A stretch of 64,000 nucleotides of DNA from positions 124,001 to 188,000 of the forward strand of contig NZ_QKVK01000009.1 in NCBI RefSeq assembly GCF_003234965.1, given 5' to 3'. The notes below the pieces were generated by a model. The model worked only from the letters and a program-made list of their open reading frames with translations, was not told where the DNA came from and ran no database searches. Positions 49,342 to 57,787 of the stretch are shown here, in pieces. Position 1 is the first letter of the stretch. Each line of letters opens with the position of its first letter. Position numbers and translations under genes: made by a program. This stretch comes from Aestuariivirga litoralis. GTDB taxonomy: Bacteria; Pseudomonadota; Alphaproteobacteria; Rhizobiales; Aestuariivirgaceae.

Positions 49342-49689
49342 TCAGGTGATGACGAGCTCGACGCCCTTGTGCAGCTTCTGCAGGTTGGGCAGCGATTTCG
49401 ACTGCCACGGAATGCGGGTGGAGCCCAGCACCTTCACCGGAAGCTCGGGGTGCTTCCTCAGCTCGATGGTGAACTTGGCGAGGAGGTTGATGCCGGAGCT
49501 GTTGAGGAATTCGAGCTGCGTGAGGTCGAGCACCATGTTCTGCGGCTTCTCGGCCAGCACCGCCTGCATCAGCTCGAGGATCGGCTGGTAGGCATCGGTT
49601 CCCGACAGCCGGAGCGTTCCTTCGTAATGGATGGTGGAGCCTTCGTTCCACACATTGTATTCGCCGGTCTTGATTTCCATGTGAGGCAA
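49342..49689 (-). CDS. STAS-like regulator, slr1659 type (anti-sigma antagonist-like)
   Basis: A 115-residue STAS-like protein. The phosphoacceptor loop reads VLDLTQLEFLNSSGINLL, with Ser64/Ser65 as candidate targets, followed by LRKHPELPVKVLGSTRIPW. It ends a five-gene operon right after its likely partner ATPase. In such systems the ATPase phosphorylates the STAS protein and a PP2C phosphatase reverses this. A paralogous domain without Ser is found in the methyltransferase fusion of the same operon. Confidence 0.8.
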   Translation of the reverse strand: MPHMEIKTGEYNVWNEGSTIHYEGTLRLSGTDAYQPILELMQAVLAEKPQNMVLDLTQLEFLNSSGINLLAKFTIELRKHPELPVKVLGSTRIPWQSKSLPNLQKLHKGVELVIT

Positions 49690-49700
49690 ACCTTTGGAGT

Positions 49701-50246
49701 TCAGTTGAGGGTGAGGGCGGCGTGGGTGCTGAGCGTCACCGCCGCGCCGGAGGTGGAGGTGCGGAAGTCCCAGCCGAGACGCGCCCCGTAATCATTCATC
49801 AGCGTGAGCAGGCCGAGGCCCGAGGCCGAGGACGTCTCGTCCGCCGCGTTGGCCTCGATGCGTTCGATCAGCAACTCGCCGGGATCGCGCGAGGTGATCT
49901 CCTCGATCAGCGACTGGAAGCGCAGGGCCACGTCTTCCGCCGTGTCGTTGCTGACGGTGAGCTCGAAGTTGCCGCTAGCCAGCGAGCAGTCAACCCGGAT
50001 GGCGCCGGGCACCCGGAACTTGATGGCGTTCTCCAGGAGCTCGTTGACCAGGTAGACGATGGCGTGGCGCGCCTCGTTGTAGTCGGCGCCGCTCTTCGCA
50101 TGGTGGAGCGCGAAGGCATCGCCGAGGAATTCGCAGGTCTCGCTGGCATGCTGCCAGCTCACCCCCAGCGGCCCATCCGAGATGACGAGCCGCATGGCAA
50201 AGGCCCCGGCGGGATTGTGACGCGCAATGTCTCCGAATTGCTTCAT
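49701..50246 (-). CDS. GHKL ATPase, slr1658-type partner-switching regulator
   Basis: A 181-residue protein with an HATPase-like fold. N box: YLVNELLENAIKF (Glu69, Asn73); G box: SASGLGLLTLMNDYGARLGW (residues 140-159). It probably binds ATP and acts as kinase for the STAS-like protein encoded 11 bases downstream. It is paralogous to the degenerate protein at 53785-54276, sharing the pattern LGLL..(N/V)DY.AR. Function is inferred from family and neighbours. Confidence 0.75.
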   Translation of the reverse strand: MKQFGDIARHNPAGAFAMRLVISDGPLGVSWQHASETCEFLGDAFALHHAKSGADYNEARHAIVYLVNELLENAIKFRVPGAIRVDCSLASGNFELTVSNDTAEDVALRFQSLIEEITSRDPGELLIERIEANAADETSSASGLGLLTLMNDYGARLGWDFRTSTSGAAVTLSTHAALTLN

Positions 50247-50249
50247 GCT

Positions 50250-52622
50250 TCACCTGTGCTTCAGAACGACGAGGGTGATGTCGTCGTGAACCTTCTGCTT
50301 GCCGATATGCGCCCTGAGGTCGGCGATGATGGTGGCGGCGATCAGGCCGGCGGGCTCGTGGTGCGAGCGCCTGGCGGAGGCGACGAGATTGTCGATGCCG
50401 TAGAGCCGGCCGTCCTCGCTCTCCGCCTCGGTGATGCCGTCGGTGAACAGCACCATCACGTCGCCCCTTGCGAAGGGCACGGTGGTGCTGGCCAGGAAGT
50501 CGTTGATGTTGGCTTCGAGGCCGATGGGGAAGCCGAGGTCCATGGTGTCCAGCCGCTCCACCGCGCCATCGGCCCGGATGATGATCACTTCCTCGTGCTG
50601 GCCCGAGATCGTCACCGCATCATCAGCATAGTCGACGAAGGCCAGCGACAAATGCCGGTCGGTGCGGGTGCGCTCGACGTTCTTGTAGATCGAGCGGTTG
50701 AGCACGTCGAGGAACTCGCGGGGATCGGTGACGCCGCGTTCGTAGAGGGCACGGCTCACCGACTGCACCATCAGCATCAGCACGCCGCTTTCAACGCCAT
50801 GCCCGGTCACGTCGCCGATGCCGATCTTGGCGCCGCCGGGAATGTAGAGGACGTCGTAATAGTCGCCGCCCACCTCGTCGGCGGGCTCGGCATAGCTGGC
50901 GATGTCGAGGTCGGGAATGCGTTCGAGCTCGCCCTGCGCCGGCATCACCATCATCTGGATCTTGCGGGCCACGTCCAGCTCGGCACCGAGCCGCAGGTTC
51001 TCGTCCTTCATCTTGTCGTAGAGGCGCTGGATCTCGTCATTGGCGGAGGCCAGCTGGCTGGTGCGCTCGGCGACACGGTGTTCCAGCATCTCCGTGTGCT
51101 CGCGGATCTCGCGCGCCATGGAGTTGAAGGCGCTGCCGACGAGCGCCACCTCGTCGCGGCCCTTCACCGGAACCTGCACGTCATAATCGCCGCGCGTCAG
51201 CCGGCCGGCCGCATCGGCGAGGTTGACGAGCCCCGCCGTGAAGCGCCGCGACAGCGGGATCGACAGCGCCAGCACCAGCGCCAGGAAGCCGAGCACCGAG
51301 GCGAGGATGCCCTTGACGATGCTGTTCGTGGCGCTGCTGATCTGCTTCTGCGCACCATAGAGCGAGGCATAGATCTCGCTGTCCGGCACCACGAAGCCGA
51401 GCATCAGGTTCTCCGCCGCGATGCCCTTGTTGGGCTGCCACATGTTCATCGGCTCGATCGGGTGCATGACGACGAGCAGGCCCATCGGCTTGCCGTCCTT
51501 CTCCACCGTCACGTGATCGATGGTGGTGGCGCCGGGCCGCGGCATGCGCAGGCTGGCGACATCCTTGAACGTGCTCTTCAGCAGGCTGCGCTCATGGCCG
51601 GTCACGCCGGCACCCGTGGCGGATACCTCGGTGAGGCCGAGCAGGGATTCACCCTCGGGGGTGATGGTGAGCACATTGCCGTTCTGCTGCGAAAGGAAGG
51701 CAAAGCCGGTTTCGGCGATCTTGACGTCCTCGACCAGCTGGGTGAGCTGCTCCAGCGTCACGTCCATCGCCACCATGCCGGCCACCGCGTCGCGCGAGCG
51801 GGTGTAGAGCGGGTGGAAATAGCTGACGATCAGCTTGCCGGTGATGGCGTCGACATAGGGCGACAGCACGGTGATGTCGGTCGGCACCGGCCGGGTGGAC
51901 GGGTCCTTGAGCCAGCTCTCCCACGCCTCGTAGACGCCGGGAAAGAAGAAGTCCCACCAGTTCTGGCTGTTGTTGCCGGGATAGAGCTGGTCGAAGGTCT
52001 GCGCCTGGTCGGAATAGGGCATGGTGCGCATGATCGGCCGTTCCTTGGGGCCGACGTAATACATCTGCAGCTTGTCCTGGCCCGACGTCATCAGCGAGGG
52101 CACCACGAGGTCGAAGAACTGGGTGTTGCGCACCGCCTCGAGCACGTCCGGCCGCATGCGGCCGTTTTCGTCGAGCAGGTAGCCCCACACGCTGATCACC
52201 GAGGGCTCGCCGCGCGCGTTCTGCATCCAGTTGGCCGCGCTGTTGTAGGTCATCTTGTCGCTGAAACCGGGATATTGCTCGAGGAAGGCGTTGAGGTCCT
52301 GGTTCAGCTGCGGATTGTCGATGAGGCTCTGGCTCAGCTTCGCGAGGCCCGTCACCTGGTCGAAGGTGCGGTTGAACATCAGCGTCGCGCGCTGCGACGT
52401 CATGTTGATGTAGCGGGTGAGATATTCCTCGTTGGCCTTGGTGAGGCCGCTCTCGATTTCGGCCGAGGCATCATGCGACAGCTTGCCGACGTTCCACAGC
52501 CCGACGCCGCCGCCCACCAGCAGCGACAGCAGAACCGTGGCCCCGATGAGGGCGATGAACTTGGTGCGGAAGCTGGTGAAGGCGCCTCCCTTCACCGGCG
52601 GCATGGCGGCGCTGCCGTTCAC
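50250..52622 (-). CDS. Membrane sensor SpoIIE/PP2C phosphatase (Cache-HAMP-PP2C)
   Basis: About 790 residues. Order: short cytoplasmic start, TM1 (~22-44), a ~390-residue periplasmic sensor of double-Cache style (GYLLDENGRMRPDV, VAGMVAMDVTLEQL), TM2 (~437-457), HAMP, coiled coil (VAERTSQLASANDEIQRLY) and a PP2C domain (EVGGDYYDV, GDVTGHGVESG, FTDGITEAES). This is the SiaA/RsbU-like architecture that senses an extracellular cue and dephosphorylates a STAS protein. GTG at 52622 overlaps the methyltransferase stop (GTGA) behind AAGGAA; ATGs at 52604 or 52658 are alternatives. Confidence 0.88.
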   Translation of the reverse strand: MNGSAAMPPVKGGAFTSFRTKFIALIGATVLLSLLVGGGVGLWNVGKLSHDASAEIESGLTKANEEYLTRYINMTSQRATLMFNRTFDQVTGLAKLSQSLIDNPQLNQDLNAFLEQYPGFSDKMTYNSAANWMQNARGEPSVISVWGYLLDENGRMRPDVLEAVRNTQFFDLVVPSLMTSGQDKLQMYYVGPKERPIMRTMPYSDQAQTFDQLYPGNNSQNWWDFFFPGVYEAWESWLKDPSTRPVPTDITVLSPYVDAITGKLIVSYFHPLYTRSRDAVAGMVAMDVTLEQLTQLVEDVKIAETGFAFLSQQNGNVLTITPEGESLLGLTEVSATGAGVTGHERSLLKSTFKDVASLRMPRPGATTIDHVTVEKDGKPMGLLVVMHPIEPMNMWQPNKGIAAENLMLGFVVPDSEIYASLYGAQKQISSATNSIVKGILASVLGFLALVLALSIPLSRRFTAGLVNLADAAGRLTRGDYDVQVPVKGRDEVALVGSAFNSMAREIREHTEMLEHRVAERTSQLASANDEIQRLYDKMKDENLRLGAELDVARKIQMMVMPAQGELERIPDLDIASYAEPADEVGGDYYDVLYIPGGAKIGIGDVTGHGVESGVLMLMVQSVSRALYERGVTDPREFLDVLNRSIYKNVERTRTDRHLSLAFVDYADDAVTISGQHEEVIIIRADGAVERLDTMDLGFPIGLEANINDFLASTTVPFARGDVMVLFTDGITEAESEDGRLYGIDNLVASARRSHHEPAGLIAATIIADLRAHIGKQKVHDDITLVVLKHR

Positions 52623-53788
52623 GAAGGTTTCCTTCCCGAGGCGGCCCAGATCGGCCACCCGGCATAGCCCTTGGGGTGAAGGGCCGCGTAGATGTGGTCT
52701 TGGAAGCCCTGGCGGAACCTGGCGATGAACTCCGGCGAGTCGCCCCGGTCACGCGCCATTTCGCCGGCATAGACGTTTTCCCAGGACTGGATGATGTCGG
52801 CGAAGCTCTGCGGGTCGCCGTCGAGGTTGGTGACCATGAAGCTGTCGACGCGGATGTCCTCGAAGCCCGCATCGATCAGGTAGCGGCGGCTCTTGGGGCC
52901 CAGTTCGATGTCCATCTTGTAGTCGGCCCACAGGCGCGCCACCTCGTTGTAGGTCCACTGGATGGACTCGGCGCGCGGCTCGCCCAGGCAATGCGAGTTC
53001 TTCTCGTTGGTGATGTAGACGCGCCCGCCCGGCTTGCAGATGCGGTAAAGCTCGCGGAGGATCAGCTCCGGCCGGTCGAACACCTGCAGCGAATGGCGGC
53101 AGGTGACGAAGTCGAACTGGTTGTCCTCCAGCACCATCTCGGAGGCGTCGCCATAGACGTATTCGATTCCACTGACGCCGAAATCAGCCGCCACCTTGCG
53201 GGCATAGTCGAGGCTGGAGCGCGAATGGTCGAGCGCCAGGATGCTGGCGGGCTTCAGCTCCTTCTGCACCAGGACGGCGAAGTCGCCGATGCCGCAGCAC
53301 ACGTCCGCCATCGCCATGCCGGGCCTGAGCCCGTGGCGCGGCAGGAGGTGCTTCTCGTGCTGCCAGGTCAGCTTGGTCTGGGCGCGCAGGATGGGGATGA
53401 AGCCGCCTTCCTCGAGGTAGGACTGGCCGGGATAGAAGTCCTTGTCGTATTCATTGACGGAGACGTTTGGCAGCAGCCGGGCGAGCGGCAGGAACTTGCG
53501 CGTCGACCAGCCCATGACGCTCGACGTCACCACCTCGACGCGGAGGTCGGGCCGCCCGCCGCACACCTGCGACACCAGCCCCGCGATGACGCGGAAGGCC
53601 ACGTTGTTGAGCCGCGCCAGGCGTTTCACATTGAGGTAGAAGGTGCCCTTCACCTGTCCCAGCGCTTCGCCCAGAGACTGGGCCAGTGGCCTGATCTCGT
53701 CCTCGCTGCGCGGGCGCAGCTTGCCGGCGATGACGAATTCCTGGTTGTTCTCGTTGAAGCTGGCCTGGTAGCCGCGGTCGGGGCTCAT
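52619..53788 (-). CDS. STAS-like domain fused to a SAM-dependent methyltransferase
   Basis: A 389-residue fusion. Residues 1-120 align by eye with the STAS-like protein of the same operon: FYLNVKRLARLNNVAFRVIA parallels its LDLTQLEFLNSSGINLL, but NSSG is replaced by NNVA, so no phosphoacceptor Ser exists. Residues ~140-330 form a class I methyltransferase (MADVCCGIGDFAVLVQ motif I, ILALDHSRSSLDYAR, GDASEMVLEDNQFDFVTCRH, RICKPGGRVYITNE). The methyl acceptor is unknown. It overlaps both flanking genes by four bases. A signalling output controlled by protein interaction is inferred. Confidence 0.75.
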   Translation of the reverse strand: MSPDRGYQASFNENNQEFVIAGKLRPRSEDEIRPLAQSLGEALGQVKGTFYLNVKRLARLNNVAFRVIAGLVSQVCGGRPDLRVEVVTSSVMGWSTRKFLPLARLLPNVSVNEYDKDFYPGQSYLEEGGFIPILRAQTKLTWQHEKHLLPRHGLRPGMAMADVCCGIGDFAVLVQKELKPASILALDHSRSSLDYARKVAADFGVSGIEYVYGDASEMVLEDNQFDFVTCRHSLQVFDRPELILRELYRICKPGGRVYITNEKNSHCLGEPRAESIQWTYNEVARLWADYKMDIELGPKSRRYLIDAGFEDIRVDSFMVTNLDGDPQSFADIIQSWENVYAGEMARDRGDSPEFIARFRQGFQDHIYAALHPKGYAGWPIWAASGRKPS

Positions 53789-54276
53789 GCCGCGGCTCCT
53801 TCCAGCGCCATCTCGGCCGCGAGCTTCAACCGGTTGCCCTGTTCCGGCTGGATGGAGATGCGGGCGCGATAGTCGACCGCCACTTCGAGCAGGCCCAGGT
53901 GCGGGTCGGCGCGCCCGGGTGAAAACAGGGCCGCGTGATAGGTCTCCGCCAGGTCCGGCTGGCTCAGCCGCCGCGCTGCCTCGCTGTAGAAGGACAGGGC
54001 CGCGGCGTCGCAGGGCAGGTCGAGCTCGATCACGTCCGCATCGCCCGCACGGCTCACCCGGCAGGAAAAGTCTCCCTCCGGGCCATGATGCGCGAAGGCG
54101 GTCTCGAGCAGCTCGTTGAGGGCGGAGCTCATCAGGTTGGCGTAGAGCAGGGAGTCGGTGCGGTTGTGGCTCACCATGCGGGCGAGGTAGGAGGAGATGC
54201 GGTCGCAGTGCAGCCACTCCGAGGCGAAGGCCTCGATTCCCATGGAGATTTCGACTAGCGGTCTGGTGCCACTCAT
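53785..54276 (-). CDS. Degenerate GHKL-ATPase-like protein, first gene of the regulatory operon
   Basis: A 163-residue protein with no named domain. By eye it is a paralogue of the ATPase at 49701-50246: ALNELLETAFAHH matches NELLENAIKF, and DPHLGLLEVAVDYRARI matches SGLGLLTLMNDYGARL. The N-box Asn is Thr59 here and the G-box Gly pair is reduced to PHLGLL, so ATP hydrolysis or phosphotransfer is doubtful. It probably binds the STAS-like domain encoded next to it. Related families include DUF6272/SiaB-like proteins. Confidence 0.6.
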   Translation of the reverse strand: MSGTRPLVEISMGIEAFASEWLHCDRISSYLARMVSHNRTDSLLYANLMSSALNELLETAFAHHGPEGDFSCRVSRAGDADVIELDLPCDAAALSFYSEAARRLSQPDLAETYHAALFSPGRADPHLGLLEVAVDYRARISIQPEQGNRLKLAAEMALEGAAA

Positions 54277-54480
54277 TCCCTTGGTCCCGGCATGTCCTCA
54301 GGCGGCACGGTGGACGGCCCGCGGCAATCCACTGAGGAAGGTTGCAAATCAGAAACTTACGACAGCTGCCGCCGCGCGCCGGATGCTAGCGGCAGGCCCC
54401 TGTGCGAACAAGAAGATTTAGCTTGCGCGGGAGCCGGGCGCGGCACAGTTTCCGCGCCACCACACAGCAAGGAGGCACGC

Positions 54481-55206
54481 GTGACCGCAAGCAGCAATGG
54501 CCGGAAGCCCCGTCCGCCGGTTTTCATCTCGGCCCCCATCGCCGCACTCGTCGAAGGCATTTACCGGGCGGACACCACGATCGGGCTGCTGCGCCAGAAG
54601 GGCAATCTCGGCATCGGTACCTTCAACGATCTCGACGGCGAGATGGTGCTGCTCGACGGCCAGGTCTATTGCCTCCGCCCGCAGGGCGATGCCGAGCTCA
54701 TCCCCGACGACGTCCGCACGCCCTTCGCGCTCACGTCCCAGTTCAAGGGCGACACGGAAGACGCATTCGGCAAGGTGGCGGAGGCCGATTTCGAGCATGC
54801 GCTGCTCGATCTGGTGCCGTCCACCAACCTGATGTATGCGATCCGCATCGACGGGCATTTCGACTATGTCCGCGCCCGCTCCGTGCCGAAGATGATGAAC
54901 TACATGCCGCTGGCCGAGATCGCCAGGCTGCAGACGGTCTTCGAGTTCACGGATGTCGAGGGCACCATCATCGGTTTCTACACGCCCAACTTCCTGGCCG
55001 GCGTGCACCTGCCTGGCCTCCACCTGCACTTCATCACGAAGGACCGCACGCGTGGCGGCCATCTTCTCGCGGCGGCGCCGGGCAGCGTCACGGTGAAGCT
55101 GCAGCACGCCCCCTCGGTCGAACTCGGCCTGCCGATGACCTTCGACTTCCTCACCATGGAGCGGGTGCGCGACATGCAGGCCGACCTCGACAAGGTCGAG
55201 CGCTGA
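54481..55206 (+). CDS. budA: Alpha-acetolactate decarboxylase
   Basis: A 241-residue enzyme converting 2-acetolactate to acetoin. The zinc-binding His residues are H181 and H183 (LPGLHLHFITKD) and H194 (TRGGHLL); the 2 and 11 residue spacings equal those of the Bacillus enzyme. Glu54 in DLDGEMVLLDGQVY and the EGTIIGFYTPNFLAGVH segment also fit. GTG at 54481 has AAGGAGG five bases upstream, the best ribosome site in the region. No alsS neighbour is present; it lies between two regulatory operons. Confidence 0.93.
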   Translation: MTASSNGRKPRPPVFISAPIAALVEGIYRADTTIGLLRQKGNLGIGTFNDLDGEMVLLDGQVYCLRPQGDAELIPDDVRTPFALTSQFKGDTEDAFGKVAEADFEHALLDLVPSTNLMYAIRIDGHFDYVRARSVPKMMNYMPLAEIARLQTVFEFTDVEGTIIGFYTPNFLAGVHLPGLHLHFITKDRTRGGHLLAAAPGSVTVKLQHAPSVELGLPMTFDFLTMERVRDMQADLDKVER

Positions 55207-56104: not shown

Positions 56105-56527
56105 GTGACGGGTCGGCTCGACATGTCGCTGGCGAATGATGTCCAGGAGGTGGCGCGCGTCATCGACAGCCTGGAGGAGTTCGGCGCCGCCAACGGCATT
56201 CCGGCCGAGCAATCGCTGCGCTTCGGCCTGGCGCTCGACGAGCTGATCACCAACATCATCTCCTATGGGCTGGCGGGCCGCAGCGACGGCATCATCACGC
56301 TGGCCATCGAGCACGGCGGCGGCGTGCTGCGTGCCGAACTGGCCGACAACGGCCCGCCCTTCGATCCGCTCGCCGCCGATGCGGCACCGCCCGTGGGCGA
56401 CATCGAGACGCGCGAGGTGGGCGGCCTCGGCCTCACCCTCGTGAAAAGCTTCATGGACCGTCTTGACTACAGGCGGGCCGATGGGTTCAACCGACTGACT
56501 ATGGAAATGAAAGTGAAGGCAGCCTAA
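56105..56527 (+). CDS. RsbW-like anti-sigma-type serine kinase/ATPase
   Basis: A 140-residue HATPase_c_2 protein. N box FGLALDELITNIISYG (Glu46, Asn50) and G box VGGLGLTLVKSFMDRLDY are intact, with ADNGPPFDP between. These kinases phosphorylate a STAS antagonist and sequester a partner. GTG at 56105 follows GGGGGAAG. It leads a plus-strand operon with STAS, SpoIIE and LssY-like genes; no sigma factor gene is present here. Confidence 0.88.
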   Translation: MTGRLDMSLANDVQEVARVIDSLEEFGAANGIPAEQSLRFGLALDELITNIISYGLAGRSDGIITLAIEHGGGVLRAELADNGPPFDPLAADAAPPVGDIETREVGGLGLTLVKSFMDRLDYRRADGFNRLTMEMKVKAA

Positions 56528-56552
56528 TCTGCCTCAGCAGGGAGACAAGCAC

Positions 56553-56891
56553 GTGACCAGCCTCAACCATGAAACCGTCAATGGCGCCCTCGTCCTCAAG
56601 CCGTCGCGCCGCATCGATTCGAGCAGCGCCAAGGCCTTCGAGGATGACGCGGCCGCCCTTCTCGACAAGGGCCCCAAGAAGGTGGTGATCGATGCCACCG
56701 ACCTCGACTACATTTCCTCCGCCGGACTGCGTGTCATCCTCACCACCGCCAAGAAGGCCAAGGCGGCCGGCGGCGGCCTGACCATCGCGTGTGCGAAGAA
56801 CAATGTGAAGGAAGTCCTCGCCGTCTCCGGCTTCGACAACATCTTCGGCCTGCACGACAGCGTCGCCCAGGCGATTTCCGCACTCGCGTGA
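56553..56891 (+). CDS. STAS-domain anti-sigma factor antagonist
   Basis: A 112-residue canonical SpoIIAA/RsbV-type STAS protein. VVIDATDLDYISSAGLRVI includes candidate phosphoacceptors Ser55/Ser56. It begins with GTG at 56553, 25 bases after the RsbW-like stop, and its stop overlaps the GTG of the phosphatase gene. It is the expected substrate of both its neighbours. Confidence 0.92.
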   Translation: MTSLNHETVNGALVLKPSRRIDSSSAKAFEDDAAALLDKGPKKVVIDATDLDYISSAGLRVILTTAKKAKAAGGGLTIACAKNNVKEVLAVSGFDNIFGLHDSVAQAISALA

Positions 56892-57787
56892 GCGCCACGT
56901 CAGGCGTTGCGGCCGCAGCCGGTCCCGGGGACCGGCTGGCGGCGCTGGAGGCCGAACTCGCCAGCGTCCGGGCCGAGCTCGACGACCTCAATCTGCTCTA
57001 CCAGGCCACGATCGAGCACGGCGAGGCGGTGGAAGACCAGCTCGCCGAGGCCAATCTCGCGCTGCAGACGACGCAGAAGCGCCTGACGGAGGAATTGACC
57101 GAGGCAGCCAACTACATCTTCTCGATCCTGCCCGAACCGCGCACGGCGTCCCCCGTCACCGAGTGGCTGCTGCTGCCCTCGACCGAGCTCGGCGGCGACA
57201 GCTTCGGCTACCACGACATCGATGCCGACCACATGGCCTTCTACCTGCTCGACGTCTGCGGCCACGGCGTGGGCGCGGCCTTGCTGTCGGTGACGGCCAT
57301 CAACGTGCTGCGCTCGGCGGCCCTTCCCAACACCGATTTCCGCGATCCCGGCGCGGTGCTCTCGGCACTCAACGACGCCTTCCCGATGGAACGGCAGCAC
57401 AACATGTATTTCACCATCTGGTATGGCGTGCTGACGCGCAGCACCGGCGTGCTGCGCTATGCCAGCGGCGGCCACCCGCCCTCGGTGCTGCGCCGGGCCG
57501 ACGGCAGCGTGCTGACGCTGTCGACGCCGGGCATCGCCATCGGCATGATGGAGGCCATGAGCTATCGCGCGGCTGAATGCACGGTCGGTGCGGGCGACCG
57601 CCTGCACCTCGTCAGCGACGGCACCTTCGAGGTCGAGACCTCGCCGGGCCAGATGCTGGCCTTCCAGGACTTCGTCGACCGGCTGGCGCGCAGCGAAACG
57701 CCGGGCGAGGTTCTGGACTGGGTGCGCGGCCTCAACGGCCCCGGCCCGCTGCCGGACGATTTCTCGCTGCTCAATATCCGGTTCTGA
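56888..57787 (+). CDS. Cytoplasmic SpoIIE-type PP2C phosphatase
   Basis: A 299-residue protein: N-terminal coiled coil (about residues 15-75, LAALEAELASVRAELDDLNL) and a C-terminal PP2C domain. Metal sites are in STELGGDSFGYHDI, YLLDVCGHGVGAALLS, HLVSDGTFEVE and LPDDFSLLNI. There is no membrane sensor, so input probably comes through the coiled coil or another protein. It should dephosphorylate the STAS protein encoded just upstream (GTGA overlap). Confidence 0.9.
   Translation: MSATSGVAAAAGPGDRLAALEAELASVRAELDDLNLLYQATIEHGEAVEDQLAEANLALQTTQKRLTEELTEAANYIFSILPEPRTASPVTEWLLLPSTELGGDSFGYHDIDADHMAFYLLDVCGHGVGAALLSVTAINVLRSAALPNTDFRDPGAVLSALNDAFPMERQHNMYFTIWYGVLTRSTGVLRYASGGHPPSVLRRADGSVLTLSTPGIAIGMMEAMSYRAAECTVGAGDRLHLVSDGTFEVETSPGQMLAFQDFVDRLARSETPGEVLDWVRGLNGPGPLPDDFSLLNIRF

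Follow-up and report, generated by a model that had tools for sequence, protein, structure and literature searches.

A five-gene operon of Aestuariivirga litoralis with two paralogous ATPase/STAS pairs around a sensor phosphatase: a possible partner switch gating a methyltransferase

The stretch of 64,000 nucleotides (nt) of Aestuariivirga litoralis contig NZ_QKVK01000009.1 analysed here, hereafter the window, carries on its minus strand, from 54276 to 49342, an operon of five genes, named g1 to g5 in transcription order. We read this operon, with a probability of roughly 0.45, as a SiaABC-type switch formed by g3, g4 and g5, to which is added a duplicated, signalling-dead and unphosphorylatable pair (g1 and the STAS domain of g2) that gates a methyltransferase. 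This reading starts from the observed gene order, the homology of the two pairs, the conserved gain and loss of motifs, and the predicted folds of g1 and g2. The five genes are the following, g2N and g2-MT designating the two parts of g2.

g1, 54276-53785, minus strand: degenerate protein of SiaB/SpoIIAB fold (GHKL), likely a pseudokinase, 163 residues
g2, 53788-52619, minus strand: N-terminal STAS-like domain (g2N, about residues 5-112) and class I S-adenosylmethionine (SAM) methyltransferase (g2-MT, about residues 130-388), 389 residues, ATG start
g3, 52622-50250, minus strand: dCache-HAMP-SpoIIE/PP2C membrane sensor phosphatase, 790 residues, GTG start
g4, 50246-49701, minus strand: candidate SiaB-like kinase of the slr1658 superfamily with intact motifs, 181 residues
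g5, 49680-49342, minus strand: candidate STAS phosphoprotein of the slr1659 superfamily, 112 residues, best start ATG 49680

This order of degenerate ATPase, STAS-methyltransferase, sensor phosphatase, intact ATPase and STAS protein is the one that an earlier sequence-only reading of the window had claimed. That reading also gave gaps or overlaps of 11 bases or less, which holds for the 4-nt overlaps (the g2 ATG over the g1 stop, and g3 over g2) and for the 3-nt gap between g3 and g4, but not for g4 and g5, which lie 20 nt apart when g5 is started at 49680 and 11 nt apart only if an upstream TTG is used. The start at 49680 is kept in 46 relatives, as ATG in 45 and GTG in one. Across relatives, the 4-nt overlap recurs between g1 and g2 in 33 out of 45 cases, and between g2 and g3 in 43 out of 45.

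With regard to the two ATPase-like proteins, g4 belongs to the slr1658 superfamily by its score against NCBIfam NF047703 (E 1e-49, 168.5 bits, curated cut-off 100 bits), while g1 matches the same model under the cut-off (E 5.6e-12, 45.4 bits) and has no Pfam match in a scan of the window proteins. Profile-profile comparison with hhalign (40 and 35 rows, after removal of some near-copies) aligns g1 with g4 at a probability of 96.4 and E 1.2e-9, so by sequence comparison the two are homologous beyond chance, g1 being a divergent paralogue. The roles of the individual motif residues of GHKL, SAM and PP2C domains are textbook knowledge, and they were counted for the ATPases in an alignment of 47 g4 rows, 46 g1 rows (the window plus 45 loci) and two SiaB-like rows. 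The N-box Glu is kept in every row. The Mg2+ Asn of the N-box occurs in all 47 g4 and both SiaB-like rows and in none of the 46 g1 rows, where Val, Thr, Ile, Ala or Leu stands instead; likewise, Asn occupies the G1 place in 46/47 g4 and 0/46 g1 (there Phe, Leu, Ile, Met or Val). The SGLG box is invariant in g4 apart from one Gly-to-Ser change, its first Gly being present in 46/47 g4 and 2/46 g1, and its second in 47/47 g4 and 21/46 g1. A Glu or Asp is found in 44 of the 46 g1 rows where g4 carries Thr. Judged by the hallmarks of a GHKL kinase, namely the Mg2+ Asn of the N-box and the Gly-rich box, g1 falls short and is likely a pseudokinase as far as its residues tell. Three features of g4 recur in the two SiaB-like proteins, namely ExxxN, GAGLG and the G1-place Asn, and by this likeness to SiaB g4 may be an active kinase. 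The NELLE segment that the sequence-only reading saw in both ATPases is borne out, its N, E and E being kept in 46/46 g1 rows; the LGLL segment is not a feature of the g1 family, its Gly being kept in 21/46 g1 rows.

An AlphaFold2 model of g1 built from a 40-row alignment reached a predicted local distance difference test score (pLDDT) of 94. Foldseek matched it to SpoIIAB, SiaB, RsbW and histidine kinases: the SpoIIAB entries 1l0o and 1til were best by E-value, and SiaB 6kko (chain B) had the highest query template modelling score (TM-score; 0.67) among the 50 matches listed. The likeness is to be taken at the level of fold, since just two matches pass E 0.001. A sequence search of the PDB with g4 gave nothing below E 0.04, and one with the g1 profile gave no match, so that the fold search alone was informative there. 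In two loci (L098:11459-11977 and L099:11450-11965), public annotation names g1 'ubiquinone biosynthesis methyltransferase UbiE'; the g1 of the window lacks any Pfam match, so this name seems to have been transferred from g2 by mistake.

The two STAS domains are related in the same way. While g5 passes the curated cut-off of 100 bits for NCBIfam NF047705, the slr1659 superfamily (E 1.3e-40, 138.2 bits), g2N stays under it (E 5.2e-9, 36.4 bits). In profile-profile comparison (32 and 31 rows), g2N and g5 align at a probability of 85.7 and E 5.5e-6, and the GW and PW segments, already claimed as shared by the sequence-only reading, are aligned; the domains are, on sequence grounds, homologous beyond chance, with g2N a divergent paralogue. 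STAS domains have a well-known order of strands and helices, which residues 6-112 follow in the AlphaFold2 model of g2 (37 rows, pLDDT 83.5), the methyltransferase coming after. The 50 Foldseek matches listed for g2 all have the methyltransferase fold, and the assignment of g2N to STAS is based on topology together with the family and profile-profile matches. The models of g1 and g2 thus display the expected folds, and not unrelated ones.

In all 46 loci and in the window, g5 carries the motif LNSSGIN. SiaC is phosphorylated at Thr68 within the peptide LLYLNTSSIK, as stated in the available part of the report (PMC7647112), and g5 Ser61, aligned by eye with this Thr, is by analogy the candidate phosphorylation site. 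At the phospho-acceptor position, g2 carries Asn in 47/47 rows, followed by Thr in 25 of them and by Val, Ile or Leu in 22. That g1 and g2N lack the signalling residues is a shared, maintained trait and not recent decay, as both reading frames are open and the proteins remain 63-90% (g2, 36 aligned relatives) and 31-88% (g1, 39 relatives) identical to those of the window.

The C-terminal part of g2 is a class I SAM methyltransferase by fold and motif residues. It passes the cut-off of Pfam PF08241 (E 7e-19), its best PDB fold match by Foldseek is 3mgg_A (target TM-score 0.83), and the SAM motif residues D161, G165, G167, D186 and D213 are invariant in 47 g2 rows. We give it no specific enzyme name, because none exceeded its cut-off among the best 25 of 49 NCBIfam matches. 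As for g3, PF07228 (SpoIIE) and PF00672 (HAMP) are over their cut-offs and PF02743 (dCache) is under its own at 2e-9. Two hydrophobic segments lie at about residues 22 and 435. The SiaA model matches only the HAMP-PP2C part (residues 435-787) at 1.9e-36, with 125.8 bits against a cut-off of 700. The PP2C motif Asp residues, which we take to be the metal site, are invariant in 46 rows, as expected of a PP2C/SpoIIE phosphatase.

A single scan of 84,980 species genomes for g2 relatives returned 55 loci, 46 of which match g2 near full length; the nine that match only the general methyltransferase stretch were left out. All 46 carry g1-g2-g3-g4-g5 on one strand (the contig of L010 ends within g1), so the gene order is far from peculiar to one strain. 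By their labels, the loci belong to Hyphomicrobiales (Rhizobium, Sinorhizobium/Ensifer, Mesorhizobium, Roseibium, Ancylobacter and others), to an unplaced alphaproteobacterium (L050) and to a metagenome-assembled genome (MAG; L024). The L024 contig, labelled Chthoniobacteraceae (Verrucomicrobiota), carries the operon on long branches and was retained in the counts; it may represent a mis-binned contig or a transfer. Two other loci, L009 and L014, originate from a single MAG (Rhizobium sp. Q54), with g2 identities of 90% and 70%, and a Rhizobium jaguaris plasmid likewise has two places, which suggests that certain genomes have the operon twice.

The operon is patchily distributed, g2 being found in 6 of the 199 genomes sampled from the order, with A. 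litoralis included in this and the following counts. Proteins of the slr1658 superfamily occur in 4 of 385 class genomes and in 10 of 398 phylum genomes. All four class carriers have two copies about 4.1 kb apart, that is, the double arrangement, and those other than A. litoralis, three in number, all come from a single genus that lies outside the order. Of the phylum sample, the six genomes from the order that are positive for g4 are the same six that are positive for the g2 enzyme (299-genome sample). Every alphaproteobacterial slr1658 carrier in these samples thus has the operon. The remaining four phylum carriers comprise G621, with a single pair, and three weak matches resembling SiaB-type proteins; no further single pair turned up at E 1e-10 in 47 other genomes of the class of G621. 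Among plasmid records, 120 carry g2 and 119 carry g4, 118 of the latter being rhizobial, and about two of the g2 records have no detected g4. The pSymB replicon of Sinorhizobium meliloti 1021 (L096) holds all five genes and an upstream GGDEF-EAL gene.

This distribution bears on an alternative in which g1 and the g2 STAS domain are purely structural, forming a constitutive subunit or dimerisation scaffold of an independent methyltransferase that sits in the operon by chance. The conserved loss of signalling residues would suit such pure scaffolding, but we regard it as very unlikely in view of the tight linkage to g3-g5 in 46/46 loci and in genomes outside the order. Furthermore, no unfused close relative of the enzyme was found in the 299 phylum genomes at E 1e-15, the nearest other proteins being 32% and 27% identical over part of their length (E 5e-18 and 6e-16).

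Trees of the ATPases and of the STAS domains, with 20 rows each of g1 and g2N, recover g1 as one clade and g2N as one clade, both at 100/100. In the best ATPase tree, g1 falls within g4 beside Roseibium, and its branch is 6.8 changes per column long; a starred support of 98/96 is given for a 24-row set that contains g1 and four g4 rows. The g5 sequences make up one side of a branch at 86/97. A duplication giving rise to g1-g2 inside its own operon was considered and set aside: the placement of g1 within g4 is read as long-branch attraction, and g4 as a single clade is not rejected by the approximately unbiased (AU) test (p 0.415). The root cannot be placed, since there are just two single-pair outgroups (L092 and L097), which in the STAS tree do not even fall on one side of a branch. 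The common ancestry of the pairs is clear as judged from the sequences, with the date and place of the duplication not fixed by the trees. Of the duplicated and diverged module proposed in the sequence-only reading, two homologous pairs therefore stand, one intact and the other with consistent residue loss and an enzyme attached; a duplication within the operon is, with the root unplaced, at most a possibility.

Under the preferred reading, which is also the most economical one, g3 would sense a periplasmic cue through its dCache domain and dephosphorylate g5, which g4 would phosphorylate at Ser61 using ATP. The g1 protein and the STAS domain of g2 would make up a translationally coupled pseudo-pair, able to bind and unable to be phosphorylated, in which g1 most likely keeps the g2 methyltransferase in one state. 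Unphosphorylated g5 would then compete for g1 (or g4) and alter the activity or availability of the methyltransferase. We infer the g1-g2 complex, the competition by g5, methylation as the output, the relay and the nature of the substrate; the part given to g5 as a mobile messenger is modelled on SiaC, which in its unphosphorylated form binds and activates the cyclase SiaD, according to the available text of PMC8457831.

Co-variation of distances was determined over 32 loci of 45 sets (window included), controlling for g2-MT and g3. Partial r amounts to 0.72 for g1-g5, 0.67 for g1-g4, 0.61 for g4-g5, 0.52 for g1-g2N, 0.45 for g2N-g4 and 0.41 for g2N-g5, with standard errors of 0.08-0.13. The g1 distances track g5 and g4 at least as closely as g2N, which is compatible with g1 touching g5 and gives no sign of a closer tie of g1 to g2 than to the others. 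These values also touch on an alternative that we consider rather improbable, in which the unphosphorylatable g2 STAS domain acts as a trap by binding g4 directly, g1 serving as spacer or stabiliser; g4 would be split between g5 and g2, and its occupancy would control the methyltransferase. The Asn found throughout g2 at the phosphosite would block release by phosphorylation, and g2N does co-vary with g4. Nevertheless, g1 is always there and mostly translationally coupled to g2, and its co-variation with g2N is not below that of g2N with g4, although neither point is decisive.

Several observations weigh against the pseudo-pair relay itself. The differences in co-variation do not exceed about two standard errors, and the highest partial r of all is that of g1 with g5, not with g2. 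The slr1658 proteins examined have no DxGxG box, which is why the kinase activity proposed for g4 leans on its likeness to SiaB. With the N-box Glu preserved throughout and the first Gly present in 2/46 rows, g1 may still bind nucleotide. Finally, in the 25 g2 rows where Thr follows the Asn, this Thr could be phosphorylated.

The genes around the operon give hints of further outputs, and of inputs. A GGDEF-EAL protein is encoded directly upstream, on the same strand and at a distance of 28-182 nt, in 25 of the 46 loci; all 25 read AGDEF and retain EAL, and both domains were confirmed by Pfam in the two that were scanned. An AraC gene lies downstream in 8/46 loci, accompanied in seven by uxs/uxe-like genes, and in the record of S. 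medicae genes for AraC, UDP-glucuronate decarboxylase, galE and glycosyltransferase stand near the operon. This order fits the published cuxR and uxs1-uxe-aps locus of a polysaccharide induced by cyclic di-GMP (c-di-GMP), as described in the available part of PMC7902896, and the AraC gene would, by its position, be cuxR. In Sinorhizobium-type loci the context is likely c-di-GMP and polysaccharide control. It is conceivable, if improbable, that c-di-GMP is the main output as in SiaABCD, with unphosphorylated g5 docking on the GGDEF-EAL neighbour or an unlinked counterpart, much as SiaC acts on SiaD, and the g1-g2 methyltransferase forming a secondary or feedback arm. The 25 upstream genes and the downstream AraC and uxs/uxe genes speak for this view; however, the 25 loci are related and hence not 25 independent cases, the other 21, the window among them, have no GGDEF-EAL gene adjoining, and it is the methyltransferase fusion, at 63-90% identity to the window, that is the invariant part.

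A short way past the divergent acetolactate decarboxylase gene, the window holds a second partner switch, identified with Pfam and NCBIfam:

56105-56527, plus strand: HATPase (RsbW-like)
56553-56891, plus strand: STAS protein
about 56789-57787, plus strand: SpoIIE phosphatase

This second switch (56105-57787) is kept beside the operon in near relatives, and may be part of the operon's system. By clusters of open reading frames (ORFs), a second SpoIIE phosphatase is close by in 15/46 loci. In six of those 15, and in three genomes outside the order, SpoIIE stands without STAS or HATPase neighbours, which suggests that it may serve g5. A tblastn search found the second SpoIIE gene also in L014, where it is cut by the contig end, and a fragment in L024. 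By the ORF clusters, two loci have both a GGDEF-EAL gene (not adjacent there) and a second SpoIIE, and six have neither.

Divergently from g1, on the plus strand at 54292-55206, lies the acetolactate decarboxylase gene; its Pfam domain begins at residue 78, so the true start is probably well 3' of 54292. In this intergenic region, 5' of g1 at about 54400-54430, the window and four close relatives share a stretch resembling GCAAGCTAAAT-x-T-x-CTTGTTC amid variable flanks, perhaps a promoter or operator. Among the 300 bases 5' of g1 in 46 sequences (the window and 45 loci), EcfG, sigma-54, sigma-32 and -35/-10 consensus sites were no commoner than in shuffles.

Taken a step further, and held more tentatively than the reading set out at the start, the operon may be a two-tier switch. 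Doubling of an ancestral kinase/STAS pair would have yielded a second pair that, once catalysis and the phospho-acceptor were lost, served purely as a relay by binding, and through it a periplasmic sensor phosphatase would control a methyltransferase acting on proteins or metabolites; in rhizobia, this control would probably be linked to c-di-GMP and surface polysaccharide. If true, this would be a natural partner switch with a pseudokinase and a pseudo-antagonist as its output tier, and with methylation as output instead of a sigma factor or a cyclase. The operon may feed c-di-GMP-linked polysaccharide control, and its presence on pSymB of S. meliloti 1021 makes the idea directly testable in a tractable organism.

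In the open-access literature, to which the search extended and which excludes subscription papers, no description of the double pair or of the STAS-methyltransferase fusion was found by title or opening of the abstract, and nothing under DUF6272 or under SMb20447 and SMb20449-20453, which we take to be the gene numbers of the pSymB region. The sequence-only reading had likened the operon to the SiaABC and Rsb systems, and this stands as an analogy; by family, g4 and g5 are members of the slr1658/slr1659 superfamilies, whose names occur in just four of the open-access papers, and stay under the cut-offs for SiaB and SiaC. The RsbVW/RsbU and SpoIIAA/AB/IIE systems follow the same general logic, and share the folds, as the SpoIIAB matches of g1 illustrate. 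They differ from the operon in that its pair is duplicated, and no sigma factor is found among ten window proteins scanned. A Kovacikia plasmid and genome G621 each carry a single slr1658/slr1659 pair, in stretches of 16 and 20.5 kb where tblastn found no relative of g1 or g2. A Synechocystis slr1658 mutant recovers poorly from iron limitation, according to the available part of PMC7555055.

With SiaABC(D) of Pseudomonas aeruginosa, the operon has in common a membrane sensor PP2C phosphatase, a SpoIIAB-fold kinase, a STAS-fold phosphoprotein with its phosphosite after LN, and, in many loci, an adjoining GGDEF-type gene. The motifs of that system (ExxxN, a GxGLG-type box and an acceptor Ser/Thr after LN) are all present in g4 and g5. 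In contrast, g4 reaches 13.9 bits against a cut-off of 85 for the SiaB model and g5 13.6 against 150 for SiaC, and the operon adds a dead second pair and a methyltransferase, which we did not meet for Sia in the available parts of the papers. The nearest idea that we met, within the accessible part of PMC13373217, is that of CapK-CapS and VapK-VapS-VapC, where the output controlled by a GHKL kinase and its STAS partner is likewise no sigma factor, and where CapS joins a STAS domain to an output domain. What sets the operon apart from these is that its output STAS domain carries no acceptor and that a separate sensor phosphatase is present.

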